64,000 nucleotides of DNA from Chitinophaga pollutisoli (GTDB taxonomy: Bacteria; Bacteroidota; Bacteroidia; Chitinophagales; Chitinophagaceae). Both the position numbers and the translations under genes were made by a program. Positions 42,344-64,000 of the stretch are shown one piece after another. The stretch covers positions 4,122,001 to 4,186,000 of the forward strand of contig NZ_CP149822.1 of NCBI RefSeq assembly GCF_038396755.1. The letters run 5' to 3'. Positions within the stretch are counted from its first letter, which is position 1; each line of letters starts with the position of its first letter. A model generated the notes under the pieces. The model searched no databases, was not told the origin of the DNA, and saw nothing but the letters and a program-made list of their open reading frames with translations.

Positions 42344-42934
42344 ATGATCGATCAGGTTTTGAGCGCGATCGTAAGTAAGTTGAACACATACATTGGCTCC
42401 CTGGATCCTGAAGTTATTCTTGGCAATATTTCATTCGCCGATACTAATCAGGAAACAGTCATGCAGAATCTTGGCGACAAAGTAGTGATCTCTGTCGTGA
42501 ATATTCAGCAGGAGGAAACGTTGCGCAACCTGCCGTACCGGCGTACCGTGTATACCAACGGTATCCCGGAAGTGGTGGAGCGCCAGCCGGAGATCCATCT
42601 CAATGTGTTCCTGCTTATCAGCGCGAATAAGAACACCTACAGCACTGCCCTGCAACGTATTTCGCAGGTGATCGCATTCTTTCAGCGGCAGTTCGTTTTT
42701 ACGCCGGCAGATACGCCGGTGCTCGGTACGCTCCAACTCAACCGTGTTATTTTCGATTTGTATTCGACGCGCTTCGAAGAACTGAACCAGTTGTGGAGCG
42801 TGATGGGAGGGAAGTACATCCCGTCCGTCATTTATAAAATGCGCATGGCCGTGATCCAGGATGCACCGCAATCAGGTTCCGGCATCATTACTGAAATCAA
42901 CCTGCAGACGCAGGTCCTGGGCACGCAGCAGTAA
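42344..42934 (+). CDS. eCIS DUF4255 (Pvc16_N) family protein, putative tube/sheath cap
   Basis: A 196-residue protein of the DUF4255 family, the counterpart of Pvc16/Afp16, which sits at the end of the sheath-tube and terminates it. Recognisable stretches are VVISVVNIQQEETLRN, NPYRRTVYTNG-like LPYRRTVYTNGIPEV, and the C-terminal LNQLWSVMGGKYIPSVIYKMRM, which is the family's most conserved part (placed near the sheath-docking surface). It is the first gene of the operon; all downstream genes are on the same strand with short gaps. Confidence 0.88.
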   Translation: MIDQVLSAIVSKLNTYIGSLDPEVILGNISFADTNQETVMQNLGDKVVISVVNIQQEETLRNLPYRRTVYTNGIPEVVERQPEIHLNVFLLISANKNTYSTALQRISQVIAFFQRQFVFTPADTPVLGTLQLNRVIFDLYSTRFEELNQLWSVMGGKYIPSVIYKMRMAVIQDAPQSGSGIITEINLQTQVLGTQQ

Positions 42935-42982
42935 TTACGCCCAACATAAACCCTGTTATTGAACAACCCCATCGATACCACC

Positions 42983-43735
42983 ATGGAAAAACTGGTTTGG
43001 CGTTATATCCCGGAATTCAGGATACGTATCCGTATCAACAATGCCGACCCCGGCGAGGGCGTCCGCCTTGTACTGTCTCCGCTCAGCTCCGCTACGGCGG
43101 CCAGTTTCGGGCTGCTCGTCCGTTCTTCTCCGGGAGGCCTCACCGCTTTTTGCAAGCAGCATTTCAACGGTATAGCCTGGGCGCCTGCCACTGCCCTAAC
43201 GCAGCCGGTGCAGTTTTCTTTCTGGTTGATGATCGATAAAGCCCGCGCCGCCTTGCCCGACTTTTTCGAACAAGGCACCCAACAGCTGGGGCGCCGCATC
43301 TTTTATGCTGCCAATCTCACGCCCGCCGGCATCATCGATGCTAACCTCGCAGGCAATGTGGTGGCACTTACCGCCGCTGCAAACGCCGGAAACACCGAAA
43401 ACGGCGCCCTCAGCGGATATCTCCTGTCGCATGCCGTAACTCCCGGCGCCTACAACCAGATCCGCGCGGGGAAAATAGCGGCGGGAGCGCCCGTCAGCTT
43501 CTCCCTCAGCGAAACCGTCACGCCCCTGCAAGACCGCACCGGCCTGGATCTCCGCCCGCACCCCAGGGGCGCGTACGTCGTGCGGCTCGAAGGCGGAACA
43601 CCCCTGCAGGAAAAAGTCGTATTCGACCAATCCGCCGCCACGGCCGACGTTTGCGGCGTGATCGACATATTCAAAGAAGCCTGGCACCTGGCCCCACAGC
43701 CACGGGAATACAGCATTAATTTTCAAAGAACCTGA
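42983..43735 (+). CDS. eCIS-associated protein of unknown function
   Basis: A protein of about 250 residues with no recognised domain. It begins with beta-type segments (VWRYIPEFRIRIRIN, GVRLVLSPLSS), has a Thr/Ala-rich middle and ends HLAPQPREYSINFQRT. It has no signal peptide. An upstream in-frame TTG (42959) is an alternative start; the ATG at 42983 is chosen. It sits between the cap protein and the first sheath, where related Bacteroidota loci often carry an uncharacterised gene, so it may act on cap or sheath assembly. That is inference from position. Confidence 0.6.
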   Translation: MEKLVWRYIPEFRIRIRINNADPGEGVRLVLSPLSSATAASFGLLVRSSPGGLTAFCKQHFNGIAWAPATALTQPVQFSFWLMIDKARAALPDFFEQGTQQLGRRIFYAANLTPAGIIDANLAGNVVALTAAANAGNTENGALSGYLLSHAVTPGAYNQIRAGKIAAGAPVSFSLSETVTPLQDRTGLDLRPHPRGAYVVRLEGGTPLQEKVVFDQSAATADVCGVIDIFKEAWHLAPQPREYSINFQRT

Positions 43736-43750
43736 TTAAACTGACCGATC

Positions 43751-45199
43751 ATGTTAAACTTAGCAAATCTTAAAACACCCGGCGTTTACATCGACGAGGT
43801 ACCCAAGTTCCCGCCGTCTGTGGCGCAGGTGGAAACGGCCATCCCGGCCTTCATCGGCTACACCCGGCTTACGACGCTCAACGGCAACTCGCTGCTGAAC
43901 AAACCGGTGCGCATCACTTCGCTCGTGGAATATGAAGCGATCTTCGGCGCCAGGCTCGAAACCTTTACCGCGGCCGTGGCTACCGTCAACGGCGTGCACA
44001 CGGTGAGCGCGGGCCCCACCGCGCCCGCCGCACTTTTCCGGATGTACTATGCCATGCAGATGTACTTCTCCAACGGCGGCGGCCCCTGCTACATCGTGTC
44101 CATCGGGCCCGACAGCGCCACGCCACCCGCGGCCACCATCGCCAATTACACCGCGGGCCTCGCCGCCATCGCCAAAGAAGATGAGCCCACCCTGCTCGTG
44201 TTCCCCGATGCCCAGATCCTGCCGCAGGGCGATTGCTACAACCTCTACGGCCTCGCCCTCGCCCAGGCCGCCGATCTGAAAGACCGCTTCGTGATCATGG
44301 ACGTGTTTAACGGTCATCTCGATTACACCAATCCCGCCAATACCAACGTGATCGACGATGGCGCCAACGGCTTCCGGTTTCTCATCGGCAACGCCAACCT
44401 CCAATACGGCGCCGCTTATTATCCGCACCTGGAAACGTCGCTCACACTGAATTACAACGAAGAGACGCTTTCCATCACCGGAACGCTCAACGGCAACCCG
44501 GTGCCCGCCGCGATGGTGCTCCGGCTGCAGAATCCCACACCGGCGCAGGAAGCCAATTCCCTCTATCACGTGGCAAATAAACTGTATCACCAGATCAAAG
44601 CTTCCATTGCCGCCATGCCCATCGTGATGCCGCCCAGCAGCACCATCGCCGGTGTGTATTGTACGGTAGACGCCACGCGCGGCGTATGGAAAGCCCCCGC
44701 CAATACAAGCCTCCGCTTCGTCCGCAGGCCGCTCGTAGCCGTAAGCGACGATTCACAGGAAAATCTCAACGTCCACACTTCCGGCAAGAGCGTCAACGCC
44801 ATCCGTTCCTTCAGCGGCAAAGGCATCCTCGTATGGGGCGCCAGAACGCTGGCCGGCAACGACAACGAATGGCGCTATGTGAGCGTGCGCAGGTTTTTCA
44901 ACATGGTGGAAGAATCGACCAAGAAAGCTTCCGAGCCTTTCGTGTTCGAACCAAACGACGCCAACACCTGGGTGAAGGTGCGCGCCATGATCGAAAACTT
45001 CCTCATCCTACAGTGGAGAGCCGGCGCGCTGGCAGGCGCCAAGCCCGAACATGCTTTTTATGTGAAAGTAGGACTGGGGCAAACGATGACCGCGCAAGAC
45101 ATCCTCGAAGGCCGCATGATCGTGGAAATCGGGATGGCAGTGGTAAGGCCCGCCGAATTCATCGTGCTCCGCTATAGCCACAAAATGCAGGAATCATAA
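43751..45199 (+). CDS. contractile sheath protein 1 (phage tail sheath family)
   Basis: A sheath subunit, 482 residues, comparable to Pvc2/3. It begins with KTPGVYIDEVPKFPPSVA, the N-terminal arm that links neighbouring subunits. The conserved C-terminal domain contains GVWKAPANTSLRF, KGILVWGARTLAGNDNEWRYV, VRRFFNMVEESTKKASEPFVF and PAEFIVLRYSHKMQES. The sheath contracts to drive the inner tube. A second, longer sheath gene follows 28 bp downstream and the C-terminal parts are highly similar. Confidence 0.93.
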   Translation: MLNLANLKTPGVYIDEVPKFPPSVAQVETAIPAFIGYTRLTTLNGNSLLNKPVRITSLVEYEAIFGARLETFTAAVATVNGVHTVSAGPTAPAALFRMYYAMQMYFSNGGGPCYIVSIGPDSATPPAATIANYTAGLAAIAKEDEPTLLVFPDAQILPQGDCYNLYGLALAQAADLKDRFVIMDVFNGHLDYTNPANTNVIDDGANGFRFLIGNANLQYGAAYYPHLETSLTLNYNEETLSITGTLNGNPVPAAMVLRLQNPTPAQEANSLYHVANKLYHQIKASIAAMPIVMPPSSTIAGVYCTVDATRGVWKAPANTSLRFVRRPLVAVSDDSQENLNVHTSGKSVNAIRSFSGKGILVWGARTLAGNDNEWRYVSVRRFFNMVEESTKKASEPFVFEPNDANTWVKVRAMIENFLILQWRAGALAGAKPEHAFYVKVGLGQTMTAQDILEGRMIVEIGMAVVRPAEFIVLRYSHKMQES

Positions 45200-45227
45200 A
45201 CTTTTCATCTGTTAATCTTGAACGGAT

Positions 45228-47249
45228 ATGGATTATAAAACCCCAGGCGTATTCGTCGAAGAGCTTTCACTGATACCGCCTTCCGTAGCGCCGGTAGCCA
45301 CCGCCATCCCGGCGTTTATCGGACATACCGCCCGCGTTGCGGACCCCGAAGGGAAAACACTCATCAACCGGCCTGTCCGCATCACGTCCATGCTGGAGTT
45401 CACGTCTCTGTACGGCGGCGCCTACACGCCGGCAACCGTTACCGTGAAGCTCGACGCGCAGAACAACATCACGGAAGTGACGCCGGTGAACGGCCGGAAG
45501 TTTTTCCTGTTCGATGCTTTGCAACATTTCTTCGATAACGGCGGCGGCCCCTGCTACATCGTTTCCGTGGGTAACTTCACCACCGATGTGACGCTCGGCA
45601 ACGCCACCACAGGGCTCCTGGGCGGACTGGCGGCTGTTTCCCGGGAAGATGAGCCCACTATCATCTGCGCTCCTGATACCGGGGCGCTGAAGGAAGGCGA
45701 CGGAACGCCCGATTTCGTCAACGCCGGCAATTTCAACCAGGCCGCCATCCAGCAATGCGCCAAACTGCAGGACCGCTTCGCGGTACTCGACGTCCCCGGT
45801 GGGCATCTCGCGTTGAACCACGCGGAGAATCCCATCCTGAATTTTCGCAACGGCGTGGGTAACCAGGAGCTGAAGTATGCCGCTGCGTATTATCCCTGGT
45901 TGCAATCGTCGTATCCGAAAACACTGCATTTTTCGCAGCTGGCTTTCATCGACAATGCCAACGCCGCCATTCCGCCGGCTACCATCAATAACATCATTCC
46001 CGATCTGAGCGCCATGGTCACCAGCCTGCGCGACCGGCTGGCGGAAGAAGCCCGGGTGTTCTCGAAGGTACCTGCGCCGGTGCTCAATCGCAGCAATTAC
46101 AACCCCATCAGCGCACACCTGGAAACGCTCCGGCTGGCAGTGAACACAGCTGCCAACGTGGCCAACGCCCGCACGGCTTTTGTTCCCCTGATCAATTTCG
46201 TGCGCAGCGTAGCCCTGGCCGCCCGCCGGGTGGAAATGGATGCCGGCAATACACCCGACATGATCCAGGCGCTGAATAAACTCAAGGCCAACATCGATCT
46301 GCGCCAGCAACTCATCAGCCTGGTAGCCTTCGAAAAGAATGCCGCAGTGCTCGGGGCTTTCCCGGCTCCTCCACGTACCGAAGCGATGGTGCATGCGGAT
46401 TATGCCGATATCAACACTACCGATTGGATCGCCGGTGCGAACGTCACCACCATCCAGCCGGAAATGAATCCTTACACGGGCCCTACACCGCTCGCTACCG
46501 TGCAAAACGTGGCCAATGCCGTAACGCTGCACAAAGCGTTCGGGAAAGTGGCCGATGCGTTTATGACCATTTTGCAGGATGCGATCAACCGCACCGACAA
46601 TGCGGAAACGCTGCTGTTCGCTAAACATCCTTTCTTTAAAGGCGTGGTGGACCGGGTGAAATTTGAAATGAGCCTCCTCCCGCCATCGGGCGCCGTGGCC
46701 GGCGTTTACGCCACCACCGACCGTACCCGCGGCGTGTGGAAAGCACCCGCTAATATGAGCCTCCGCAGCGTGGTGGCGCCCGCCGTTAAACTGAACGACC
46801 AGGAGCAAAGCGGCCTCAACGTCGACGAAAACGGAAAGAGCATCAATGCCATCAGGGCGTTTACCGGCAAAGGCATCCTCGTCTGGGGCGCGCGCACGTT
46901 GTCGGGCAACGACAACGAATGGCGTTATGTGAACGTTCGCCGTTTCTTCACTTTCGTGGAAGAGTCGACGAAAAAAGCCTCCGAACCGTTCGTGTTCGAA
47001 AATAACGACGCCAATACCTGGGTGCGCGTCCGCGCCATGCTCGAAAACTTCCTGACGCTGCAATGGCGGCAGGGCGCGCTGGCAGGAGCAACTACCAAAC
47101 AGGCGTTTTACGTGAAAGTGGGCCTTGGCGAAACGATGACCGCGCAAGACATACTGGAAGGCCGCCTGATCGTGGAGATCGGTATGGCCGCCGTTCGTCC
47201 TGCTGAATTCATCGTGCTGAGATTCAGCCACAAAATGCAGGAATCCTGA
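45228..47249 (+). CDS. contractile sheath protein 2, with a large internal insertion
   Basis: A 673-residue sheath protein with the same N-terminal arm (KTPGVFVEELSLIPPSVA) and the same C-terminal domain (GVWKAPANMSLRS, WGARTLSGNDNEWRYVNV, EFIVLRFSHKMQES) as its neighbour. It is 191 residues longer because of an alanine-rich, mainly helical insertion at about residues 260-465 (SAMVTSLRDRLAEEA, LETLRLAVNTAANVANAR, RQQLISLVAFEKN). Insertions of this sort in PVC/AFP sheaths face outward or define the end ring, so this copy may be a specialised basal or surface sheath subunit. It likely arose by duplication. Confidence 0.93.
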   Translation: MDYKTPGVFVEELSLIPPSVAPVATAIPAFIGHTARVADPEGKTLINRPVRITSMLEFTSLYGGAYTPATVTVKLDAQNNITEVTPVNGRKFFLFDALQHFFDNGGGPCYIVSVGNFTTDVTLGNATTGLLGGLAAVSREDEPTIICAPDTGALKEGDGTPDFVNAGNFNQAAIQQCAKLQDRFAVLDVPGGHLALNHAENPILNFRNGVGNQELKYAAAYYPWLQSSYPKTLHFSQLAFIDNANAAIPPATINNIIPDLSAMVTSLRDRLAEEARVFSKVPAPVLNRSNYNPISAHLETLRLAVNTAANVANARTAFVPLINFVRSVALAARRVEMDAGNTPDMIQALNKLKANIDLRQQLISLVAFEKNAAVLGAFPAPPRTEAMVHADYADINTTDWIAGANVTTIQPEMNPYTGPTPLATVQNVANAVTLHKAFGKVADAFMTILQDAINRTDNAETLLFAKHPFFKGVVDRVKFEMSLLPPSGAVAGVYATTDRTRGVWKAPANMSLRSVVAPAVKLNDQEQSGLNVDENGKSINAIRAFTGKGILVWGARTLSGNDNEWRYVNVRRFFTFVEESTKKASEPFVFENNDANTWVRVRAMLENFLTLQWRQGALAGATTKQAFYVKVGLGETMTAQDILEGRLIVEIGMAAVRPAEFIVLRFSHKMQES

Positions 47250-47280
47250 TTCAATCATCCATTCAATAAAAAAATGAGTT

Positions 47281-47712
47281 ATGGCGAATTATCCGCTTCC
47301 CAAATTCCACTTCCAGGTTGAATGGGGTGGTGCAAACATCGGGTTCACCGAAGTGTCCGGCCTTGATGTACAGATCGACCCGATCGAATACCGCGATGGT
47401 GCAAGCCCGGAATATGTGAAGACCAAAATGCCGGGCATGGTCAAATACAGCAACATCACCATGAAACGCGGCACATTCAAGGGCGACAACCAGTTCTACG
47501 ACTGGTGGAACACCGTAGCGCTCAATACGATCGAGCGCCGTAACGTGACCATCAGCCTGCTGAACGAAAACCATGAGCCCGTGGTGGTGTGGAAGGTCAA
47601 AAATGCCTGGCCCATCAAGGTGCAAAGCTCCGACCTCAAATCGGACGGCAACGAAGTCGCCATCGAGTCGATCGAACTGGCGCATGAAGGTCTGGTGATC
47701 CAAAACGAATAG
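47281..47712 (+). CDS. inner tube protein 1 (gp19-like phage tail protein)
   Basis: A 143-residue tube subunit of the gp19/Hcp-like fold, counterpart of Pvc1. It begins NYPLPKFHFQVEWGGANIGF, has the family hallmark FTEVSGLDVQIDPIEYRDG, and continues MKRGTFKGDNQFYDWW and SIELAHEGLVIQ. Rings of this protein stack to form the tube that carries cargo. It follows sheath 2 by 31 bp; a second tube gene starts 3 bp after its stop. Confidence 0.93.
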   Translation: MANYPLPKFHFQVEWGGANIGFTEVSGLDVQIDPIEYRDGASPEYVKTKMPGMVKYSNITMKRGTFKGDNQFYDWWNTVALNTIERRNVTISLLNENHEPVVVWKVKNAWPIKVQSSDLKSDGNEVAIESIELAHEGLVIQNE

Positions 47713-47715
47713 CAT

Positions 47716-48228
47716 ATGTCTGCCTTTGACACCCCGCAGGTCGGTTTTCATTTTCTCGTTCTCTTCGAGATTCTCCCGCAGTTCCCGCAAGACGTCCGTT
47801 TCCAGGAAGTGTCGGGGCTCACGGTGGACCTGGAAATGGAAACCGTAGCCGAAGGCGGCGAGCACCGCTTCGTACATAACCTGCCCGTTCGCTCGAAATA
47901 TGGCGACGTCACGCTGAAGCGCGGCAAGATGCTCGGTTCCGGCGTGCTCCACTGGGCGCGGCAGGCGCTCGACGAATTCCGGTTCAAGCCCAGCAACGTC
48001 CTCATTTCACTGATGAACGCTGATCATGTACCCTTGTACAACTGGTACCTCATCAACGCCATTCCCAAGAAACTCGAAGTGAGCAGCTTCAACGCCGGCA
48101 ACAACGAGATCGTGGTGGAAACGCTGGTGCTCTCTTACCAGTACTTCAAGTATTACGATCCCATCAGCGTAGGGCTGGATGCCGCAGCTGGTCTCACCGC
48201 TTCGCTGGACATCAACATCGGGATTTAA
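47716..48228 (+). CDS. inner tube protein 2 (gp19-like)
   Basis: A 170-residue relative of the first tube protein: VGFHFLVLFEILPQFPQ, RFQEVSGLTVDLEME, VTLKRGKMLGSGVLHWAR and EVSSFNAGNNEIVVETLVLSYQYF. It corresponds to Pvc5-type tube proteins that form the first ring next to the hub. It is separated by only 3 bp from tube 1, so they are translated as a pair. Confidence 0.9.
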   Translation: MSAFDTPQVGFHFLVLFEILPQFPQDVRFQEVSGLTVDLEMETVAEGGEHRFVHNLPVRSKYGDVTLKRGKMLGSGVLHWARQALDEFRFKPSNVLISLMNADHVPLYNWYLINAIPKKLEVSSFNAGNNEIVVETLVLSYQYFKYYDPISVGLDAAAGLTASLDINIGI

Positions 48229-48242
48229 TAAAACTTCCGCAT

Positions 48243-48428
48243 ATGCCCATAGAAATCAGGGAACTCGTGATCCGCGCCAGGGTGGAAGAACCCGCGGCAC
48301 AGCAGTCCGGCCCCGCCGGATCCGCCGCCGGTGCAGGGAACGCCCCGCCTCAGCAAGACATCCAGCAGATCGTAGCCATCTGCACCGAAGAGGTCATGAA
48401 ATTATTGAAGAAACAAAACGATCGTTAA
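48243..48428 (+). CDS. DUF5908 small eCIS protein
   Basis: A 61-residue protein starting MPIEIRELVIRARVEE, the conserved opening of the DUF5908 family, then a Pro/Ala/Gly-rich linker and a C-terminal helix (QQIVAICTEEVMKLLKKQ). It lies exactly where the small Pvc6 gene lies in Photorhabdus loci, between the second tube and the LysM protein, and may fill the same, still undefined, role. The next gene starts 1 bp after the stop. Confidence 0.82.
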   Translation: MPIEIRELVIRARVEEPAAQQSGPAGSAAGAGNAPPQQDIQQIVAICTEEVMKLLKKQNDR

Positions 48429-48429
48429 C

Positions 48430-49206
48430 ATGCTCGAATCCGTATTTGGCGGCGGAAAGCTCGAAAAGATGATCATCCGCGCCTTCAAACCCGTTTCCAA
48501 AAAGAAGGAAAAGCCCGTGCTCAGCGACGCGGAAGGGGATAAATACATGGTGCAGGTGAACCCGGATAATTACGCGATCAATTACCGCGTCAATTACAAT
48601 CGCCGGCCCGCACCGGGCAACTCCGGGTCTGTGGCGCGTTACACCCACTCTTCACCGCCGGGACTGGAATTCACGTTCCTCTTCGACGGCACGGGCGTGG
48701 TGCCGAAACCCGCCGGTCCGCTCGACAATGTACCCATCGCGGGCGCCATCGCCGACCTCATCAGCGGCGGCGACGAATACGACGTGATGACCGAACTGCA
48801 GAAATTCGCCAAAGTGGTGTACCTCTTCGAAGGAAAGGAACACCGGCCCCGGCGCGTACAGCTCAACTGGGGTAAACTGGTGTTCACGGGCGTGTTAAGT
48901 ACGCTGTCGATCACCTACAAACTCTTCAAGCCCGACGGTACGCCACTGCGCGCCGAAGCGCGGGCAGGGTTCGAAGGATCAATCGAAGATATGTTGCGGG
49001 AGAAGGTGGAAGATAAAAGTTCGCCGGACCTCACACACGTTCGCCAGGTGATCGCGGGAGACAATATCCAGCTGATGTGCAACGACATTTACGGCGCGCC
49101 GGATCATTACATTGAAGTGGCGCGGGCGAATAAAATGTACAATTTCCGCAGGTTGAAAGAAGGCTCCGAAGTTTTCTTCCCGCCTGTCAAACCCCAACCC
49201 AAATGA
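48430..49206 (+). CDS. eCIS LysM-domain baseplate hub protein (Pvc7-like)
   Basis: A 258-residue protein with an N-terminal tube-like beta domain (YMVQVNPDNYAINYRVNYN, GLEFTFLFDGTGVV, VQLNWGKLVFTGVLSTLSITY) and a C-terminal LysM-like domain (HVRQVIAGDNIQLMCNDIYG, ARANKMYNFRRLKEGSEVFFPP). In PVC particles the Pvc7 protein links the spike hub to the baseplate; the LysM-type domain there is structural, not a cell wall hydrolase. It overlaps the VgrG-like gene by 4 bp (ATGA). Confidence 0.9.
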   Translation: MLESVFGGGKLEKMIIRAFKPVSKKKEKPVLSDAEGDKYMVQVNPDNYAINYRVNYNRRPAPGNSGSVARYTHSSPPGLEFTFLFDGTGVVPKPAGPLDNVPIAGAIADLISGGDEYDVMTELQKFAKVVYLFEGKEHRPRRVQLNWGKLVFTGVLSTLSITYKLFKPDGTPLRAEARAGFEGSIEDMLREKVEDKSSPDLTHVRQVIAGDNIQLMCNDIYGAPDHYIEVARANKMYNFRRLKEGSEVFFPPVKPQPK

Positions 49207-50939: not shown

Positions 50940-50944
50940 TAATT

Positions 50945-51235
50945 ATGTCAATGGCCGCAAGAGTGGGCGACATGCATGTTTGCCCGATGGTAACCGGAAC
51001 GGTGCCGCATGTCGGCGGTCCGGCCCTGCCGCCCGGAGGGGCTACCGTCATGATCGGCGGGATGCCCGCGCTGCGGGTGGGCGATATGTGCACGTGTACT
51101 GGTCCGCCGGATGCCGTGGTGAAGGGCTCCGCGACGGTGATGATCGGCGGGATGCCCGCGGCAAGGATGGGAGACAGTACGGCGCACGGCGGTTCCATCA
51201 TTATCGGATGCCCCACCGTCATGATCGGCGGTTAA
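50945..51235 (+). CDS. PAAR-domain spike tip protein
   Basis: A 96-residue PAAR protein that sharpens the spike tip and may bind zinc. Repeats MIGGMPALRVGDM and MIGGMPAARMGDST show the PAAR pattern, with Cys/His positions at HVCPMV, CTCTGPP and GCPTVMIGG. It follows the VgrG-like gene by 5 bp, in the position of Pvc10, and carries no C-terminal toxin extension. Confidence 0.93.
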   Translation: MSMAARVGDMHVCPMVTGTVPHVGGPALPPGGATVMIGGMPALRVGDMCTCTGPPDAVVKGSATVMIGGMPAARMGDSTAHGGSIIIGCPTVMIGG

Positions 51236-51253
51236 CGTTTAAAAAGATTTGTT

Positions 51254-51654
51254 ATGCCCCAGGAAAACGCATTTCTCGGAAGAGGCTGGAGCTTCCGCCC
51301 AGCTTTTCGAAACTCGAAAAGGAGGTGAAGATGTTCGACGCGGAAGCCGACATCGAAAGTTGCATCGCCATTATTCTTTCCACGGAACTGGGAGAACGCG
51401 TGATGCAGCCATCTTTCGGCTGGAAACGGGACCGCTGGATCTTCGAATCCCTCGGCACTACCACCGCCACGGCCATCCAGTCGGAAATAGAAACCGCCCT
51501 GGTCGTTTACGAGCCCCGCATCAAACTGAACAGCGTAAAGCTGCGGCAAGACCCCGCGGAAGCGGGAAAGGTGACGATACTGGTGGATTATGTGATCCGC
51601 AGTACCAATGCGCGCCACAACCTTGTTTACCCCTTCTATCTAACCGAAAAGTAA
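51254..51654 (+). pseudogene. gp25-like baseplate wedge protein (Pvc9), split by a one-base frameshift
   Basis: The gp25 family forms the inner wedge of contractile baseplates. The ATG at 51254 reads MPQENAFLGRGWSF, the expected N-terminus, then loses the frame. From about 51297 the next frame continues PPSFSKLEKEVKMFD and reaches the family core: SCIAIILSTELGERVMQPSFG and IEIRTALVVYEPRIKLNSV-like SEIETALVVYEPRI. One extra C at 51295-51296 (TTCCG to TTCCCG) joins them as WSFPPSFSKLE, a protein of about 133 residues. This break is not in a long homopolymer, so a real mutation cannot be dismissed; it would disable the system. The neighbouring genes are intact. Confidence 0.8.
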
Positions 51655-51655
51655 C

Positions 51656-54925: not shown

Positions 54926-54943
54926 TCCTAAAAAACTTGCAAC

Positions 54944-56020: not shown

Positions 56021-56023
56021 CCC

Positions 56024-59000
56024 ATGGAACCGATCATCCAAATACCCGCCGGTCCGCCGCCCATGAAAGGGCAGGACTTCAACCTCCTGCGGGCGGAAGG
56101 GCTTACCGTGCTGCAGGCCGCCGCAGGCGCCAGCTGGACGAACCACAACCTCAGCGATCCAGGCATCACGCTGCTGGAAGCCTGTTGCTACGCGCTCACG
56201 GAAGTGGGCCTCAAGGCAGGAATTCCCATGCGCGACCTCCTGGCCAGCGATGCCGGCGGCATGCCGCAGGAAAGTCCGACACCAGGCGTGGTGCTGCCGA
56301 TGGCGCCGCTTACGGCCAGCGATTTCCGGAAATCCCTCATCGACCATCCCCTCGTGCGGAATGCGTGGGTTTTCCCCATGGATGCGACGTATGGCGGGCA
56401 GTTGAAAGTGCTGCTTGAATTCGAAGACAAACAGCTCAATAACAATACCTTCAACGTACAGCTGAACGTAGACGTCAGTACGCCGCCGGATCCACCGTTG
56501 CTGGTAAACATTTCCGCAGACATCGCGCTCCCGTTCTGGGACGAGTCCGCGGCACGGGCTTTCAGTACCGACGTGCAACTGCAAACCGTCACCTTCCAGG
56601 ACCTGGGAGGCGGCAACAACTGGGCGCTGATCGAAAATTCCACTTCTTACCTCGCGCGCATCTCCGTGCAATATCAGCCGCCTGCGGCCTCCATTACGGA
56701 GCTGGTAGTGGTGGCGCAGATAAATACGTCCCTGCAGGACCCCCTGCAGCAAACCCCCAAAGTACTGCAGGCGCTCCAGGCGCATATCGCTACCCTCGGC
56801 GATAACTCCCCGTTGGATACTTCGCTGCTCAAGGAATATAACCGATGGGTGATCTCAGCCGCAGCGGCGGTGCGCAGTGTGGAAATGTATATGCGCGGTT
56901 ATCGCAATCTTTGTGAACGGTTCGCCATTTTTCAACCCGTGCGGTTGCAGGAAGTCGCCATTTCGGCAGGCATAGAAATCAATGCCGGCGTGGCGCCGGA
57001 AGAACTGCTCGCGTCCATTCTATTTAATATCGACCAGCATATCACACCGGTGGCAGTAATCCGGGGAATGTCGGAAATGGGGGATGACGTAGCGGTGGAC
57101 AAATTGTTTGAAGGGCCGCCGCTGCACGGGGGATTCCTGCCAGATGAAACCCTCGTGGCCACCAATCTTCCTGAACGGATTTTTACTTCCGACATCCTGC
57201 GCATTATCCTCCGCCACCGCAACGCGGGCAACGAAGATGTGAACTTCCGCGAAGATGTGAACAGCCGCCGCATCGTATCAGTGAGAACCCTCGGGCTATC
57301 GCTGTACATCGACAACCGCATCGTTACCGACAGCGCCCGCGATACCCTTTGCCTTTCCAACAGTCAGCAACACATCCCGCATCTGAGCTATTCGAAATCA
57401 CGGATCACCTTATTCCGGAACGGTATTCCTGTTCCGTACGACTGGGCGCAGGTGTTGCTGCGCGTTGCGCAATTAAAAGACGAATGGCTGAACGGGAGCC
57501 TCGGCACCGGCGACGATCTCGCGCTGCCCGCGGCGGAAAGCATTCCCGTTTCGGATTACTATCCCATCCAGGAAGACCTGCCGCTTGTGTACGGCGTGGG
57601 CTCCGCGGGATTACCGGAATCGGCGACAATCGCCAGAAGGGCGCAGGCGTTGCAATTGCAGGGGTATATGTTATTCTTTGAACAGCTGACGGCCGGTTTG
57701 ACCAGCCAGCTCGGCAATCTCAATTCGTTTTTCTCCGCCAATCCCGATATAGACCGCACCATTTTCAACCAGGCCCTGCCGCAGTTGCCGCAGGCGAAGT
57801 TGCTGTTGGGTGAGGGGTATGAGAATGCACTCGGCACTTCGGCCGAAACGCCTTTGCAGTTCCAGCAGCGCAGGAACAGAGTGTTGAACCATTTGCTGTC
57901 CACGTTCGGCGAAAATATGAACGACACGGCGGGATATGCTTTCCACGAAGCGTTGCAGCCTGATGCGTCCACGCCTGTGTTGCTGCCCGATTTACTGACG
58001 TATCAGCAGGCGCAGATGGAAAAGGCTTCGTTGCAGCTTATCCGGGAGAAGTCAGCGTTTTATTACGCGTTGCCGGCGTTGAGCCGTCATCGTGCGCAAT
58101 CCTTCGGCAACCCGGCATGGATGGAAAGCTGGCTGGTGGAAATTACGCTGGCGAACGGCGAGTACAACTGGACGATCCTGAACCCCGGCGGGCAGCCGAT
58201 GTTGAGAGGGTATTTGAGCGAAGAGCTGCCGGATCATGCCCAGGCCCGTGAAACGGCCATGAAATCCATGTTACAGGCGGCCGCCGCCATGAGCCTCGGG
58301 CGTTATCCGGAAGGGTTTATTACCGGTTTCGACGGCGTGGAATTCTACCTGGAGCTCCGCGAGCATCCGGATGCACCGCCGTACGGGCGCTCTGTGGCAA
58401 CGTACGCCGACGCGGCGGCGGTGAACCTGGGGCTTACGCAGATAACAGCTTTCATCCGCAGCCACTGGCAACGTTTCGCCATTACGCCGCTGGAAAGAAG
58501 GCTGAACCATCTGCTGGAAATCCCGGTGCAGGAAAAGCGCGCACTGCAGTCGATGCTCACGGATTACTTTGAAATATTCGACGAGCCGCCGCCGATCCAG
58601 AAGAAATTCAGGTTGTATGAAGGCGGTTCTTTTACTGGGGATGTGTTGCTGGTGAGCGACGCTGGTTACACCGGCGCTACCGATCCCGAAGCGCTGGCGG
58701 CCGTGGACGCGGGTATAGCGTTGCTGTTGAAGAAGGGTATGAAGATGGAAAATTTCCGGATCGTGCCCGAAGGGAATGCGTTCAGGGTGCAACTGATGCA
58801 GTCGGCCGGTACAGGGATCGCTTCCTCGCCGGGTACTTTTCCCACGCGGGAAGCCGCGAAGGTGGAAATCCGGCGCATCTGGCTGATGCTGAACCGGTTT
58901 TTCAGTGGGGAGGGAATGTATATCACAGAACATTTATTGCTCACGCCTTATGCGGATGCGGACCCTGCGTTGGTGGTCCCGGGAATGGACGATCCTTACT

Positions 59001-59350
59001 CGTTCCAGATCAGCGTGGTGTTCCCTTCCGGGTACGCGAGCGATTTCAGTGGCGGACCGTTGCAGGAAGTAATGCCCGCCAAATACAGGGATCCCGAGTT
59101 CCGCCGTTTCGCCGAGAAGCAGGTGCGCACGGCCTGCCCGGCGCACATCCTGCCGAGGATTTTCTGGGTGGACCGGGAATTGCCGGCAGCGCCCGCGGGT
59201 TCCCCCGGGCTCACGCGCTTCGAAGGATTATGGCACAGCTGGCAGAGCGACTGGCTGACCGACGAAACCGACGCCGCGCAGTTGCAGGGCGCAAGGAATG
59301 CGCTTGTACTTACTTTAAACGATATCATTGCCGCAGCGGAAAATGAGTAA
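56024..59350 (+). CDS. second large baseplate protein (Pvc12-like)
   Basis: A 1108-residue protein with the typical opening of this family (NLSDPGITLLEACCYALTEV, residues about 40-60) that marks the second baseplate wedge component of Bacteroidota eCIS. Long mixed regions follow, with repeated VRSVEMYMRGYRN and EITLANGEYNWTILN elements and the C-terminal ITEHLLLTPYADADPALV, FRRFAEKQVRTACPAHI. The exact fold is unknown. It overlaps the CIS tape-measure gene by 8 bp (ATGAGTAA). Confidence 0.85.
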   Translation: MEPIIQIPAGPPPMKGQDFNLLRAEGLTVLQAAAGASWTNHNLSDPGITLLEACCYALTEVGLKAGIPMRDLLASDAGGMPQESPTPGVVLPMAPLTASDFRKSLIDHPLVRNAWVFPMDATYGGQLKVLLEFEDKQLNNNTFNVQLNVDVSTPPDPPLLVNISADIALPFWDESAARAFSTDVQLQTVTFQDLGGGNNWALIENSTSYLARISVQYQPPAASITELVVVAQINTSLQDPLQQTPKVLQALQAHIATLGDNSPLDTSLLKEYNRWVISAAAAVRSVEMYMRGYRNLCERFAIFQPVRLQEVAISAGIEINAGVAPEELLASILFNIDQHITPVAVIRGMSEMGDDVAVDKLFEGPPLHGGFLPDETLVATNLPERIFTSDILRIILRHRNAGNEDVNFREDVNSRRIVSVRTLGLSLYIDNRIVTDSARDTLCLSNSQQHIPHLSYSKSRITLFRNGIPVPYDWAQVLLRVAQLKDEWLNGSLGTGDDLALPAAESIPVSDYYPIQEDLPLVYGVGSAGLPESATIARRAQALQLQGYMLFFEQLTAGLTSQLGNLNSFFSANPDIDRTIFNQALPQLPQAKLLLGEGYENALGTSAETPLQFQQRRNRVLNHLLSTFGENMNDTAGYAFHEALQPDASTPVLLPDLLTYQQAQMEKASLQLIREKSAFYYALPALSRHRAQSFGNPAWMESWLVEITLANGEYNWTILNPGGQPMLRGYLSEELPDHAQARETAMKSMLQAAAAMSLGRYPEGFITGFDGVEFYLELREHPDAPPYGRSVATYADAAAVNLGLTQITAFIRSHWQRFAITPLERRLNHLLEIPVQEKRALQSMLTDYFEIFDEPPPIQKKFRLYEGGSFTGDVLLVSDAGYTGATDPEALAAVDAGIALLLKKGMKMENFRIVPEGNAFRVQLMQSAGTGIASSPGTFPTREAAKVEIRRIWLMLNRFFSGEGMYITEHLLLTPYADADPALVVPGMDDPYSFQISVVFPSGYASDFSGGPLQEVMPAKYRDPEFRRFAEKQVRTACPAHILPRIFWVDRELPAAPAGSPGLTRFEGLWHSWQSDWLTDETDAAQLQGARNALVLTLNDIIAAAENE

Positions 59351-60941
59351 GCTCCGTCATATGATCCACCGGCAGTTGTTCGAGCTGACGGCCCAAACCG
59401 GGCATCCGGCCTGGGAATGGGACCGTACAACCGCGGATTTCCATCACGACCTGCTGTTACCCGTGCTGGAAGCGTGTTTTCTCGAAGCCGGCAGGCAGGA
59501 CGAGCACCTCGTCATCGACCGGTTGGAAATCGACCTGGGCGTGTTCGCAGGCAGGGAAAGTTTTTCGAAAGAAGCCGGTGGACGACTGCGCGAGCGCCTT
59601 GTGCCGGAGTTGCGGGCAAAGCGGCAGGAAGCTGCTGCGCGGGGAAGCATTATTCCATCCTCCGATAACCAACCTGACCCGGCTAATGGGTATGCTGTAA
59701 GAAATACAACATCCCGCCAGGAAGATCCGGCGACCGGATCAGGCGCAAAAAAGAAACGCCGGGAAATCCCTGCGGCGCTGATGGATACAGCGGAGGCCTC
59801 CCTGGCCGCGTACCTGTTTTTCCTGGCGGAAGGGCGCCTGCCCTGGTGGTTCGAACATCATGGAGAAGATTGTTTCGGGAAAGATTTTCAAGCGGGCCTG
59901 ACGACTGCGGATCTGCAGCGAATCCTGAAAATAGTGGAGGAGAGGTTGGTGCAGGCAGGCAAAGATGAAATCATGGAATGGATGGGCCGTGCCGCCGGCA
60001 TCCGATGCGTTATGTCGCTGGACGACGAATTATTAATCCGGATGGCGGTAGCAAAAGGATGGAATGAGGTAGCACTGAGGCGCGAATGGGAGATGTTGCA
60101 ATCCCCCGCACAGCAGTTCCCTGCCTTCTTCCCCGCATTCCGGCAACGATACTGGATGCTGCGCCTGCACAGCCTTTTCGCAGGAGAACCGGCGTACTGG
60201 GAAGTCATCTTCCCGCCAAAGGCCACGCCCGTTCACCTGCTGGCTTTAGTGCATGGCGAAGCGCAAAAATCCGGCGATGCAATCTTGGCTGGCTATCTCG
60301 CATCGAAACTGGAAACATTGCCGCATCATGAAGAAACGACTTCTTCCCAAAAAGAAAATACCGTTCCGGCTGCTGTCAATATTTCGGGTAAAAGGAAAGA
60401 TCGCGTGCATTCCGGCGATAATAAACAGTTGACAGCGGAAGAAGATGGCTTGTACGTGGAATCGGCGGGACTGGTGCTGCTGCATCCATTCCTGTCGGAG
60501 TTGTTCATCTCGGCCGGATTGCGGAAGAACGGCGAATGGGCGCCCCTCGGTCAACAAACCGCCGTGCGATTGCTGGGATACCTGTCCGATGGTGACGAAA
60601 ACCTGCCCGAATACCGGCTGATATTTCAGAAAATATTGGCGGGCCTCTTGCCGGAAGAGCCCCTGGAAGCTATCGCGCCGCCTGCAGAAGAGCTGCTCGC
60701 ATCCTGCAACGAACTGTTGGACGCGGTGCTCGGCCACTGGTCCGCACTGAAAGGCACCAGCCGCGACGGCCTCCGCGAAGGGTTCCTGCAGCGCCCAGCC
60801 ATGTTGCGCATCGCTGATAACGGTATGCAGCTCGAAATGGAAAAACGCGCGCAGGACGTGCTCATCGGCCGGCTGCCCTGGAGCTGCTCGCTGGTACGCA
60901 TGTCGTGGATGGAGCAACTGATCGCCGTGAACTGGATATAG
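59343..60941 (+). CDS. contractile injection system tape measure protein
   Basis: A protein of 532 residues in the CIS_TMP family, thought to set the tube length and to act in assembly (Pvc14-like). The N-terminal MSKLRHMIHRQLFELTAQTG and the strongly conserved VIDRLEIDLGVF, then a long charged middle with several Glu/Lys-rich stretches, and a C-terminal AGLVLLHPFLSELFISAGL, GLLPEEPLEAIAPP and the family hallmark LPWSCSLVRMSWMEQLIAVNWI-type ending. The start at 59343 is chosen because it gives the family N-terminus; it overlaps the previous gene. The vWA protein gene starts 23 bp later. Confidence 0.88.
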   Translation: MSKLRHMIHRQLFELTAQTGHPAWEWDRTTADFHHDLLLPVLEACFLEAGRQDEHLVIDRLEIDLGVFAGRESFSKEAGGRLRERLVPELRAKRQEAAARGSIIPSSDNQPDPANGYAVRNTTSRQEDPATGSGAKKKRREIPAALMDTAEASLAAYLFFLAEGRLPWWFEHHGEDCFGKDFQAGLTTADLQRILKIVEERLVQAGKDEIMEWMGRAAGIRCVMSLDDELLIRMAVAKGWNEVALRREWEMLQSPAQQFPAFFPAFRQRYWMLRLHSLFAGEPAYWEVIFPPKATPVHLLALVHGEAQKSGDAILAGYLASKLETLPHHEETTSSQKENTVPAAVNISGKRKDRVHSGDNKQLTAEEDGLYVESAGLVLLHPFLSELFISAGLRKNGEWAPLGQQTAVRLLGYLSDGDENLPEYRLIFQKILAGLLPEEPLEAIAPPAEELLASCNELLDAVLGHWSALKGTSRDGLREGFLQRPAMLRIADNGMQLEMEKRAQDVLIGRLPWSCSLVRMSWMEQLIAVNWI

Positions 60942-60964
60942 AAATTTTTAAAAACACACATATC

Positions 60965-63289
60965 ATGAAGACTCCCACTAACATTGTTTGGAAGTTGGCG
61001 GGGAACCTCCTCGGTTTCCTGCTGATGCTGATTCTCCCCAACCTGGCATTCAGCCAGTTTACCGTAAATATCGGGACCTCGCAAACCGTGACGATACCTG
61101 TCCAGCGTGTAGGCGTGGCCATTCCGCCCAATTCCATCACTATCGGCGTGGGCGGTGCCGTGGGCACGGTAAAATGGACCATCCAGAGCGGACCGACTTT
61201 AGATCCTCCCGATCCGGGCGAATTTGGTTTTAAGAAAGACGGATGGAAGGCAAAGTTCCCCGCGGAAGAAGGGCAATCCACTCCCGCTGCCGGCCTCATG
61301 TCGATAGAAGGGACGCCCGCCGTGCCGGGGGCTTTTGAAGTGAATATCCGCGTGCAGGACGATGGCGTGGCCGATCCGGACGTCAACGTCAATTCCGCGC
61401 AAATCAGGATCATTTTCGAAGCCGCCAACCCGCTCGACCTCGTGCTGGTACTCGACCGCTCCGGCAGTATGACCGAAAAAACGGGCGTGGAACCGACGTC
61501 GCCCACGCGCTGGAAAGCCCTGCAAGACGCTGTCGCCAACTTCACCAACATGTATAAGGAGCACGCCATCCCGGGCAGCCGCCTCGGCATCACTTACTTC
61601 CATACGGATGCTTCGCCGGCTTCGGCCTGCTGCGCCGTGCTGAAACCGGTAGACGCCGCGTTGCCGGGGATCGTAGCTTCCGAGCTGGGATCCGTGGGCA
61701 CCGGAAATATGACGGCCATGGGTAAAGGGATGATCGACGCGGTCGCTAAATTGTCGACGCCCGGCAGCGCGCGTGGCATCCTTTTATTTACCGATGGGTT
61801 ACAGAATATTCCACCCGATGTGCTGCTGAATGGTTCCGGTGTGCAGGGACAACCCGCTTTCCCGGCGGGACCTGGCGGCATCAAGATCGCCACGATCGGT
61901 ATCGGCAGTCCGTCTTCAGATTACCATACTACCCTCATGAACCTCGCCAATAACAATCGCGGTAAATACAATACAACGCTGAATGGGTTTGACTATACGC
62001 CGCAACCCGGCGGCGACGATGATGGCGCGCTCAGCGTGGGCAGCGGTTTCACCCAGCAGTTTATCAACATGCTGTCGGAGTTCAGTCCGCAACTGGTGAC
62101 CACCTCCGTTAAAATGGTATCCAGCGCCGGTCGGACCGAGCTGGCGAAATTCCCGTTAAACAAGGACGTTTCGAAGCTCGTGCTGGAATTCACCGGCAAT
62201 ATGAACTTCTCTTCCACCCAGCTGCCTTATTTACGCCAATTGATTGAAGTGCGGAAGAACGGGGTGAATGTTGCAGGCAGAGGGCGCCTGAGCTATGTGG
62301 GCAACTCCACGCGCAACTTCCTCATTGTCTTCGATTTTGGTGTGAATGACACGATGAAATCGCACGGTGATTGGGAAGTGGCTTATTTCGAGCCGGTGAT
62401 CGGCGTCGCGGCCACGCATGCTGCCGCCAATGTGCCGAAATCCCTCCGCCTGGGGCTCAACGTATTGGCGGACGATCACTATGTGGATATCGCCAGCAGC
62501 TTCTCCCCCAAACAGCCCCGCGTGAAGCAGCAACTGAAGTTGTCGGTGGATCTCAAGCGTATGCAGCTCCCGCTGACCGGCGCCGTGGTGAAAGTAGCGG
62601 TAGTGCAACCCGGAGCAGATGCCGGCCATGTGCTGGCACTCAACGAACTGAAAGTGAAGCAAGACGCGGCGGATTCCACCAACCCCGGCGTGGAAAAATG
62701 GGAAGAACTGTTGAAAGATTCGACTTTCCGCAATCAATTCAAAGGCATCAGCAATATTATAACGCTGAACCATACGGCCAACGGCAAGTATGAAGGCACG
62801 GTAGATAGCCTGAACGTTGCCGGCGTGTACCAACTCGTTTATTACATTACCGCCGATACCGCTGTGATGGGCAAGCTGGAACGCACGTTCACGGAAGCCG
62901 TATATGTGGCTTTCGGTGAGGTGGACATGGCCGCGTCGAACGTGGTGACCTCCATCGTGAATGGTACGCTGGTAATGACGTTCAGGCCGATTACGACGTA
63001 CGGGAGCTATGTGGGCCCCGCGCAAGGCAGCGCCTTCTCCGTATCCAATCCCAATATCACGATTCAAAGCGTGGTCGACAACCAGGACGGATCCTACACG
63101 ATCACTTTCGGAGGTAAAATCGACGAAGCGACAAAGCTGGAAATATCTGGTATTGAAATCTACAGCGGCAAGCTGGAAGACGCAGGCAAGAAACCGGGAT
63201 CGATGCTCGGTTTGCCTTCCTGGCTGATATGGCTGCTGCTGTTGCTGGTGATCATCATTCTGTTCCTGTTGCTGCGCAGAAAGAAATAG
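60965..63289 (+). CDS. exported, membrane-anchored von Willebrand factor A protein in the eCIS operon
   Basis: A 774-residue protein. The signal peptide is MKTPTNIVWKLAGNLLG… ending near PNLAFSQ. An Ig-like domain (about 40-135) precedes a vWA domain (about 155-370) with the MIDAS set: D164, S166 and S168 in LVLDRSGSM, a threonine in NMTAMGKGMIDAV and an aspartate in FTDGLQN. Further beta domains follow (about 400-730). It ends with a hydrophobic segment LPSWLIWLLLLLVIIILFLL and a basic tail LRRKK, so the bulk is outside the cytoplasm and anchored. No Pvc counterpart is known. It may tether or regulate the particle at the envelope or act on target cells; the role is inferred only from operon position. 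Confidence 0.85.
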   Translation: MKTPTNIVWKLAGNLLGFLLMLILPNLAFSQFTVNIGTSQTVTIPVQRVGVAIPPNSITIGVGGAVGTVKWTIQSGPTLDPPDPGEFGFKKDGWKAKFPAEEGQSTPAAGLMSIEGTPAVPGAFEVNIRVQDDGVADPDVNVNSAQIRIIFEAANPLDLVLVLDRSGSMTEKTGVEPTSPTRWKALQDAVANFTNMYKEHAIPGSRLGITYFHTDASPASACCAVLKPVDAALPGIVASELGSVGTGNMTAMGKGMIDAVAKLSTPGSARGILLFTDGLQNIPPDVLLNGSGVQGQPAFPAGPGGIKIATIGIGSPSSDYHTTLMNLANNNRGKYNTTLNGFDYTPQPGGDDDGALSVGSGFTQQFINMLSEFSPQLVTTSVKMVSSAGRTELAKFPLNKDVSKLVLEFTGNMNFSSTQLPYLRQLIEVRKNGVNVAGRGRLSYVGNSTRNFLIVFDFGVNDTMKSHGDWEVAYFEPVIGVAATHAAANVPKSLRLGLNVLADDHYVDIASSFSPKQPRVKQQLKLSVDLKRMQLPLTGAVVKVAVVQPGADAGHVLALNELKVKQDAADSTNPGVEKWEELLKDSTFRNQFKGISNIITLNHTANGKYEGTVDSLNVAGVYQLVYYITADTAVMGKLERTFTEAVYVAFGEVDMAASNVVTSIVNGTLVMTFRPITTYGSYVGPAQGSAFSVSNPNITIQSVVDNQDGSYTITFGGKIDEATKLEISGIEIYSGKLEDAGKKPGSMLGLPSWLIWLLLLLVIIILFLLLRRKK

Positions 63290-63340
63290 GAGGGAAAGCC
63301 GGCGCCTCCGCCAGCTCCCTTTTGTCACAGGAGGACTCAT

Positions 63341-63372
63341 GAAGCCGCGCGTCGTTTTGTACGTGCGGCTTC
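63341..63372 (+). terminator. hairpin between the vWA gene and the eCIS_core gene
   Basis: GAAGCCGCGCGT (63341-63352) and ACGTGCGGCTTC (63361-63372) pair at 11 of 12 positions around an 8-base loop. No T run follows (TGATAACTTTT), so it may only reduce readthrough into the next gene. Confidence 0.4.
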
Positions 63373-63396
63373 TGATAACTTTTAAAATGCATCCGG

Positions 63397-64000
63397 ATGA
63401 AAAAGGAAAAAACTGGAACCCCGGCGGCTGCTCATACCGCCGCACCGCGCGGGATGCCATTCTTCCAGGCCAAGCTCGCCGTCAACGAGCCGGGAGACGC
63501 GCATGAGAAAGAAGCTGACGCCATGGCCGACCAGGTGATGCGCATGCCCGCACCGCAAGGCGCGTTTGGCGGCAGCGGCGGGATGATGGTGCAACGGAAA
63601 TGCGCCGCCTGCGAGCAGGATGACGAAAAAGTGCAGCGCTTGCCGATGGCAGACAGGATCACGCCCGTGGTGGCGCCGCCGGTGCAACGGAAATGCGCGG
63701 CCTGTGAGGCGGAAGAAGAAGCGCATCGTTCCGGCGAAGCGCCGGCGCCGGTGGTAGGCGCGGGAACGGAAAGCGCCATCAACGGGATGCGCGGGGGCGG
63801 GCAATCCCTCCCGGCAGATACGCGCGGTTTTATGGAATCGCGCTTTGGGCAGGATTTCGGGAATGTGCGCGTGCATACCGGCAGCGACGCTGGGCAGCTC
63901 AGCAGCCACCTGAGCGCGAGGGCTTTCACGACCGGCAACGATATTTTCTTCAACAACGGGCAGTTTGCGCCCCATAGCCATTCCGGCAAACAACTGCTGG
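63397..64000 (+). CDS. eCIS_core (DUF4157) domain protein, truncated by the window edge
   Basis: The frame from the ATG at 63397 (MKKEKTGTPAAAHTAAP) stays open to 64000, giving at least 201 residues. Two copies of a cysteine motif, VQRKCAACEQDDEKVQ and VQRKCAACEAEEEAH, are followed by the DUF4157 core: MESRFGQDFGNVRVHTGSDA and FTTGNDIFFNNGQFAPHS. The sequence stops just where the metalloprotease-like HExxH is expected, so the motif cannot be confirmed. The domain is the most widespread marker of eCIS cargo loci, and the protein is a candidate effector or cargo-loading factor. An alternative start at 63387 is in another frame and does not give these motifs. Confidence 0.88.
   Translation, partial: MKKEKTGTPAAAHTAAPRGMPFFQAKLAVNEPGDAHEKEADAMADQVMRMPAPQGAFGGSGGMMVQRKCAACEQDDEKVQRLPMADRITPVVAPPVQRKCAACEAEEEAHRSGEAPAPVVGAGTESAINGMRGGGQSLPADTRGFMESRFGQDFGNVRVHTGSDAGQLSSHLSARAFTTGNDIFFNNGQFAPHSHSGKQLL

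Follow-up and report, generated by a model that had tools for sequence, protein, structure and literature searches.

The 64,000-nucleotide stretch of the Chitinophaga pollutisoli genome analyzed here (the window, positions 4122001-4186000 of a 6.08-Mb genome assembled as a single contig) carries, from position 42344 to its end at 64000, 17 successive plus-strand genes of a contractile injection system (CIS). Pfam families above cut-off were found for 15 of these genes, the other two being a 250-aa gene (42983-43735; orf2 below) and the gene encoding the Pvc12-like protein. The run continues past position 64000 on the same strand and with short gaps, adding the end of a first cargo gene, an AAA+ ATPase gene, a gene for a GH46-family hydrolase, and a second cargo gene (Table 1). 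Pfam domain E-values reaching 7e-86 across the run and a gene order identical to that of the congener G229 place the locus far beyond chance; in the alignment with G229, 95-100% of the length is spanned for the compared locus genes, except both cargos. Sheath, tube, and cap genes are present by Pfam and PDB matches, as are genes for hub, VgrG, PAAR, Baseplate J, and Pvc12-like proteins, together with an AAA+ ATPase and eCIS_core cargo in the operon beyond the window and a GPW_gp25 domain (1.6e-21), though the gene encoding the latter is frame-broken in the assembly. In our reading, the run from 42344 to ~70736 (window-equivalent) very probably forms one CIS of the extracellular contractile injection system (eCIS) superfamily, with AlgoCIS and the Anabaena CIS as its nearest relatives by sequence.

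Table 1. Genes of the CIS run (parts beyond the window lie on L002; window coordinate = L002 position + 58000)
Feature	Position	Strand	Evidence
Cap protein, Pvc16_N/Alg16A-like, 196 aa	42344..42934	+	PF14065 5e-34
250-aa protein (orf2), candidate cap adaptor by position only	42983..43735	+	no family above cut-off
Sheath 1, 482 aa	43751..45199	+	PF17482 (Phage_sheath_1C) 4.8e-13
Sheath 2, 673 aa	45228..47249	+	PF17482, PF04984; PDB All3325 4.8e-131, Alg2 2.1e-129
Inner tube 1, 143 aa	47281..47712	+	PF06841 (Phage_T4_gp19) 1.8e-50
Inner tube 2 / probable tube initiator, 170 aa	47716..48228	+	PF06841 3.2e-35; initiator role putative
DUF5908 protein, 61 aa, probable Alg6/Afp6-type plug	48243..48428	+	PF19265 6.7e-19; plug role from size/position
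CIS_tube/hub protein, 258 aa	48430..49206	+	PF19266 1.5e-44
VgrG-like spike (Phage_base_V), 578 aa	49203..50939	+	PF04717 2.1e-22
PAAR tip, 96 aa	50945..51235	+	PF05488 5e-23
gp25 baseplate gene, frame-broken	51254..51654	+	PF04965 1.6e-21 on C part
Baseplate J / Alg11-like, 1089 aa	51656..54925	+	PF04865 6.4e-9; PDB AlgoCIS Baseplate_J 5.9e-114
Short fibre with Peptidase_S74 chaperone domain, 358 aa	54944..56020	+	PF13884 5.7e-13; phage tail-fibre PHROGs
Pvc12/Alg12-like baseplate wedge, 1108 aa	56024..59350	+	PDB All3315 2.9e-56, Alg12 1.9e-51, Pvc12 3.1e-11
Tape measure CIS_TMP, 532 aa	59343..60941	+	PF19268 7.3e-86
vWA/MIDAS protein, 774 aa	60965..63289	+	PF13519 (VWA_2) 5.2e-8; model pLDDT 81.9; fold matches
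Cargo 1, eCIS_core + second HExxH (zincin-like) region, 480 aa	63397 to L002:6839 (= 64839)	+	PF13699 8.3e-33
AAA+ ATPase, 454 aa	L002:6832-8196	same strand	PF00004 6.6e-27
GH46-family hydrolase, 224 aa	L002:8215-8889	same strand	PF01374 4.9e-15
Cargo 2 with eCIS_core, 1280 aa	L002:8894-12736	same strand	PF13699 5.3e-30

The original prediction, made from the letters of the window, had named the 17 plus-strand genes and their domains, and both were placed correctly. It had also pointed to the sequence past 64000 as the place to look for an AAA+ ATPase and cargo, and both lie just downstream; of 40 congener regions taken downstream of the tape measure, all had AAA and 37 had eCIS_core, these regions representing 40 of the 74 tape-measure-positive genomes of the genus and having been tagged with eCIS models rather than Pfam. 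Its assignment to the eCIS superfamily is borne out by Pfam domains, gene order, and the downstream AAA and cargo genes, and the doubling of sheath and tube that it described is real. The description as complete-looking is not supported as it stands, since gp25 is interrupted in the assembly, and the remark that the organism has no established system of the kind is at odds with the report of eCIS in 89% of sequenced Chitinophaga (Geller et al., PMC8213781).

Structural genes and their relatives

The two sheath proteins are paralogues and so are the two tube proteins. The sheaths match at 77% over the C-terminal 191 residues and at 40% over an N-terminal stretch of 248 columns, sheath 2 having a long middle stretch without counterpart in sheath 1, and the tubes match at 30% over 145 columns. 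The best PDB matches of the three large proteins tested were to AlgoCIS and the Anabaena CIS, with E-values of 5.9e-114 and 2.7e-113, respectively, for Baseplate J, 1.9e-51 and 2.9e-56 for the Pvc12-like protein (which also matches Afp12 in PDB), and 2.1e-129 and 4.8e-131 for sheath 2. Matches of the same proteins to the Photorhabdus virulence cassette (PVC) and the antifeeding prophage (AFP) (PDB 6j0n, 6rao) were much weaker, so that the likeness to PVC drawn in the original prediction holds for the general gene logic and the multiple sheath and tube genes but not for sequence. The Chitinophaga CIS further differs from PVC and AFP in its S74 fibre, no Afp13-type fibre having been identified; S74 proteins may replace the Afp13 fibre (Geller et al., PMC8213781). 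It is of note that nearness to AlgoCIS and the Anabaena CIS denotes best PDB matches and not a position in a CIS phylogeny, a place in clade Ib with AlgoCIS, MAC, and T6SS-iv being putative.

In the published description of AlgoCIS of Algoriphagus machipongonensis (PDB 7aeb, 7aef), a plug, a cap adaptor, and a spike cage are accompanied by a pair of DUF4157 cargos, of which one has a predicted metalloprotease end (PMC8894135). Both AlgoCIS and the Chitinophaga CIS have cap, tube, hub, a plug-sized small protein, VgrG, PAAR, gp25, an Alg11/Alg12-like baseplate, and, as cargo, a pair of eCIS_core (DUF4157) proteins of which one contains a second HExxH region. In cargo 1 the latter is an HEFGH motif at residue 373, and a PDB sequence search with this cargo returned nothing useful. 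The DUF5908 protein, with its 61 aa, occupies the plug position and resembles Alg6 by size and place only. AlgoCIS has one sheath protein and the Alg19 fibre, whereas the Chitinophaga CIS has two sheaths and the S74 fibre and goes beyond AlgoCIS in encoding a von Willebrand factor A (vWA) membrane protein and the GH46 enzyme. A cap adaptor was not identified here. The candidate by position, orf2, was found in 14 of the 79 genus genomes, each of which has the vWA gene as well; its structural model has a predicted local distance difference test score (pLDDT) of 49, and its profile gave no convincing match in PDB (best E-value 0.28) and none to AlgoCIS, so that a role as Alg16B-type adaptor stays a guess. 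Matches of the AAA+ ATPase to IetA in PADLOC probably reflect the common AAA domain.

The gp25 gene is split between an N-terminal piece (51254-51328), whose frame from 51254 reads MPQENAFLGRGWSF... and stops at 51328, and the GPW_gp25 domain (51331-51654), which lies in a different frame. The gene was found in all 16 relatives searched, and 15 of them carry N-terminal motif and domain within a single open frame; the exception, G353, is a 65% complete assembly whose matches to the vWA, tape-measure, and orf2 genes were likewise in pieces. In G361, the nearest relative examined, the gp25 part is 98% identical and the frame intact. A product of 107 residues starting at the ATG at 51331 is a possible alternative. 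Programmed frameshifting was considered and set aside, no canonical slippery signal being apparent by eye and the relatives being unshifted. The break lowers the standing of the locus as a working copy but not its kinship with eCISs, and it is a warning that a list of genes does not by itself show a working machine.

The vWA protein and the GH46 enzyme

The vWA protein has a signal-peptide-like helix, an immunoglobulin-like domain, the vWA domain, a beta-sandwich stalk, and a C-terminal transmembrane (TM)-like helix followed by RRKK. In an alignment of 15 sequences, the residues of the metal ion-dependent adhesion site (MIDAS) are invariant, and so is the GLPxWxxW-TM-KK tail. A vWA gene match was obtained in 20 of the 79 genus genomes, leaving out G308 and G358, whose partial matches are to other proteins of ~990 aa, as against the tape-measure family in 74 of 79 (and in 62 of 294 family genomes). 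Near-full-length homologues have been found so far only in Chitinophaga, and in 17 of the 18 genomes with such a homologue the gene lies directly 3' of the tape measure. The tape measure itself varies among the genus and family genomes scanned: in G055, G065, G209, G314, G325, and others there are open frames of ~780-1440 aa in which the CIS_TMP model matches in several pieces, which, beside the usual shorter ones, are candidate ruler-length variants.

The GH46 gene was found in 23 of the 79 genus genomes. In at least 20 of these 23 it lies, among the matches listed and by visual comparison of positions, no more than 15 kb from a tape-measure match on the same contig, the genomes with a GH46 gene away from the tape measure being, among the same matches, G315, G334, and G350. 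Elsewhere in the family, GH46 was found in 3 of 294 genomes and in none of them near the tape measure. The vWA and GH46 genes do not form an obligate pair: of the 17 genomes with vWA at the locus, 13 have GH46 at the same place (in G315 it lies elsewhere), and GH46 near the tape measure without a vWA match was seen in 7 genomes. Likewise, a universal wall-hydrolase slot after the tape measure is unsupported in Chitinophaga, where GH46 was found in 4 of the 40 congener regions, other wall hydrolases not having been searched there.

Beyond the genus, a scan of named genomes seeded by the enzyme of this locus and five relatives yielded 106 relatives, of which the best 80 were kept, and a locus was called eCIS-linked when two or more eCIS models matched within 10 kb. 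Linkage was found for 28 of these 80 loci. A gene in a genome with one eCIS would lie so near it with a chance of ~1%, by a rough estimate made without a matched control gene. Chitinophaga (12) and Chryseobacterium (6) account for 18 of the 28, and the others include Mucilaginibacter, a Cytophagales, three Bacteroidia metagenome-assembled genomes (MAGs), and MAGs labelled Methylobacter, Geobacter, Pelobacter, Desulfuromonadales, and Deltaproteobacteria. The linked loci thus span at least three phyla, the five outside Bacteroidota (L147, L167, L170, L174, L187) all being MAG contigs. L182 was counted as linked although both eCIS models are sheath models on one open reading frame (ORF), whereas L135 and L196 match one eCIS model only and were left out; in the latter (G055), an eCIS_core-type ORF lies ~8 kb from GH46. 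On a tree of 81 GH46 proteins the eCIS label needs nine changes, at least seven of them forced by supported branches, compared with a mean of 23.9 after shuffling (0 of 500 shuffles were as low as nine), indicating that the association was both inherited and repeatedly gained or lost. The gene next to GH46 encodes eCIS_core in 16 of the 28 linked loci, an assignment made by model in 13, by Pfam in 1, and by the HELTH motif only in 2. For example, in L177 the GH46 gene sits between the Baseplate J and Pvc12 genes, and in L182 it begins 10 bp after a sheath gene. The words chitosanase, muramidase, and glycoside hydrolase are absent from the main text of PMC8213781.

By sequence, the enzyme belongs to the same family as the chitosanases 6lwu, 4ily, and 1chk. 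Its E18 and D34 align with the Glu and Asp of chitosanase 4ily, presumably the catalytic pair, and are invariant in 6 of 6 relatives, although the best PDB match, chitosanase 6lwu, has Ala opposite E18. The protein differs from the chitosanases in having no signal-peptide-like start and in the neighbors of its gene, which are eCIS, peptidoglycan-binding, or lysozyme-inhibitor genes (selected neighbors were tested by Pfam). In five Methylococcaceae loci, among them the eCIS-linked L147, the next gene upstream of GH46 encodes a lysozyme inhibitor of the LprI family, the neighbor in a sixth, L165, being of another kind. A PG_binding_1 protein is encoded directly upstream of GH46 in four of the six Chryseobacterium eCIS loci (CHAP falling below the Pfam cut-off), and a PG_binding/Peptidase_M15 protein directly downstream in L188. 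Because some relatives adjoin such genes, the substrate is probably peptidoglycan and not chitosan. A neighboring inhibitor gene would favor an attacking effector over a release enzyme, but no such gene was found in the CIS locus studied here, where release is a candidate role too. The enzyme would most likely act as an extra antibacterial effector or in freeing particles from the producer, the former being a little more likely.

Other genes were noted near eCIS loci or near GH46. Among selected neighbors in other genera, CHAP+PG_binding occurs in G225 and G160, N-acetylmuramidase+PG_binding in G225, and PG_binding alone in G027; proteins of the CHAP+PG_binding and N-acetylmuramidase+PG_binding types are encoded beside eCIS genes of other Chitinophagaceae at L045:2969-3727, L045:12912-13799, and L069:17811-18563. 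Outside eCIS loci, a family of membrane proteins of ~300-440 aa is encoded directly upstream of GH46 in L162, L168, L171, L181, L189, and L195, the L189 member showing no Pfam family above cut-off.

Proposed working and alternative readings

By homology to AlgoCIS, the DUF5908 plug, hub, VgrG, and PAAR would make up the spike, and gp25, Baseplate J, and the Pvc12-like protein the baseplate. CIS_TMP would set the length of the machine, and of the two tube proteins one would act as initiator and the other as shaft. Both sheath proteins would wrap the tube, with Pvc16 capping its end. The tube would carry the two eCIS_core proteins, prepared with the help of the AAA+ ATPase, and the S74 fibre would trimerize, cleave itself, and recognize the target, whereupon contraction of the sheath would inject the cargo. 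GH46 most likely cuts peptidoglycan, as extra effector or in releasing particles from the producer. For the membrane-tethered vWA protein, the likeliest role is in holding, sensing, or releasing the machine at the cell envelope. We tentatively propose, as a possibility that may well prove wrong, that some CIS loci carry a dedicated cell-envelope module, consisting of a signal-less GH46 peptidoglycan hydrolase in or beside the operon and a membrane-tethered MIDAS adhesin encoded directly after the tape measure; the lysozyme inhibitor beside GH46 in one lineage would then act as immunity.

Several points weigh against the main reading of the locus and the roles given there to GH46 and vWA. The Chitinophaga CIS is known here from its genes, particle, release, and target lying beyond what sequence can tell, and sequence matches do not tell released CISs from membrane-anchored ones. 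With its gp25 gene split over two frames, this copy may fail to assemble, except where the break stems from a sequencing error or the 107-residue product is enough. GH46 is not a core part, being absent from 56 of the 79 genus genomes; its proposed substrate draws on neighbors in other taxa only, and the solved GH46 relatives found in the PDB search are chitosanases only. The vWA domain, moreover, has been counted among the putative toxin domains of eCISs (PMC8213781), a role against which the topology of the protein argues without excluding it.

Descent from a phage tail is common ground for any such machine, and the S74 fibre matches phage PHROGs, so the locus could in principle be a defective or remodelled prophage tail (tailocin). 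With eCIS-type cap, CIS_TMP, AAA, eCIS_core, and DUF5908 genes present, and with no capsid, portal, or terminase family among the 36 distinct genes in and around the locus that were scanned with Pfam (a set that does not include every window gene), this is exceedingly improbable. The original prediction had ruled out both a prophage and a type VI secretion system (T6SS), and this stands insofar as no head or packaging family was found in those 36 genes and no match to the TssC/VipB sheath subunit anywhere in the genome, on which grounds we reject a prophage and a canonical T6SS. Its further argument, the absence of TssB/ClpV, is not decisive, T6SS-iv to our knowledge lacking TssB/ClpV. That absence leaves the mode of action unsettled because eCISs and membrane-attached T6SS-iv co-exist among close relatives in clade Ib (PMC8894135). 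By the same token, "extracellular" claims a release that sequence alone does not show, the near relatives being AlgoCIS and the Anabaena CIS (PDB 7b5h; All33xx). The latter is thylakoid-anchored, and its Pvc12-like protein and sheath match ours at least as well as those of AlgoCIS, its Baseplate J about as strongly. The machine could therefore stay in the cell, docked by the vWA protein, and fire outward or on lysis, a reading in keeping with the two modes of clade Ib, with the signal-peptide-like helix, invariant MIDAS residues, and invariant tail of that protein, and with the position of its gene directly after the tape measure. It nonetheless seems unlikely, for most Chitinophaga CIS genomes have no vWA gene, the vWA part should by its predicted topology face the periplasm, away from a cytoplasmic baseplate, and AlgoCIS, about equally near, was found in the supernatant and reportedly never seen attached to a membrane (PMC8894135). 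Loss of the system in this strain, with the gp25 break as a real mutation in a decaying, non-functional locus, is less probable still. Such a break would probably stop assembly, since the AlgoCIS counterpart is said to initiate assembly of the sheath (PMC8894135), and the nearest relative has the gene intact; yet a single break was seen, the other structural genes align near full length with G229, and an indel in a short run is also what an assembly error produces.

As regards the accessory enzyme, a chitosanase directed at fungal walls would agree with the solved relatives and with the description of Chitinophaga as a soil microbe and fungal endosymbiont (PMC8213781). The missing signal-peptide-like start, the LprI inhibitors of the five Methylococcaceae loci, and the peptidoglycan-binding proteins in Chryseobacterium and L188 speak for a peptidoglycan hydrolase instead and make a chitosanase rather unlikely.

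Because eCIS loci are common in the genus, another one in Chitinophaga is unsurprising by itself; the kind of machine is already known, and the GH46 and vWA accessories are its unusual helpers. What could matter is the proposed, testable cell-envelope module. Exit of particles from the producer has been ascribed simply to cell lysis (PMC8213781; PMC8894135). The eCIS-linked probable wall enzyme, with lysozyme-inhibitor neighbors in some relatives, is a testable candidate for release or attack, and the membrane-tethered MIDAS protein makes it worth testing whether docked machines, as opposed to free ones, occur among Chitinophaga systems. If the proposal is true, the two proteins together would enable a producing cell to dock or release its machine or to aim it at bacterial walls, and how eCIS particles exit the cell or cross the target wall would become a question for gene deletion.

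Neighboring genes

Directly beyond the eCIS run lies a gene for an M1-like peptidase (L002:12733-14691), and G160 and several congeners have homologues of it on the downstream side of their eCIS, a position that suggests an old shared chromosomal site. Of the 40 congener regions, 17 (in L227-L250) have a gene with a ParA/MinD-like ATPase motif at most 15 kb downstream of the tape measure, often between cargo genes (e.g. L232:3723-4490), with none in the region studied here; the two checked by Pfam are AAA_31/CbiA, and the product may act in positioning or loading of particles. An orphan eCIS_core gene (467 aa, L261:4712-6115, minus strand, near G000:C1 5397755) sits ~1.2 Mb from the CIS locus in the same genome. 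Far upstream of the CIS run, the window also contains an ORF of 2413 aa (10834-18075).

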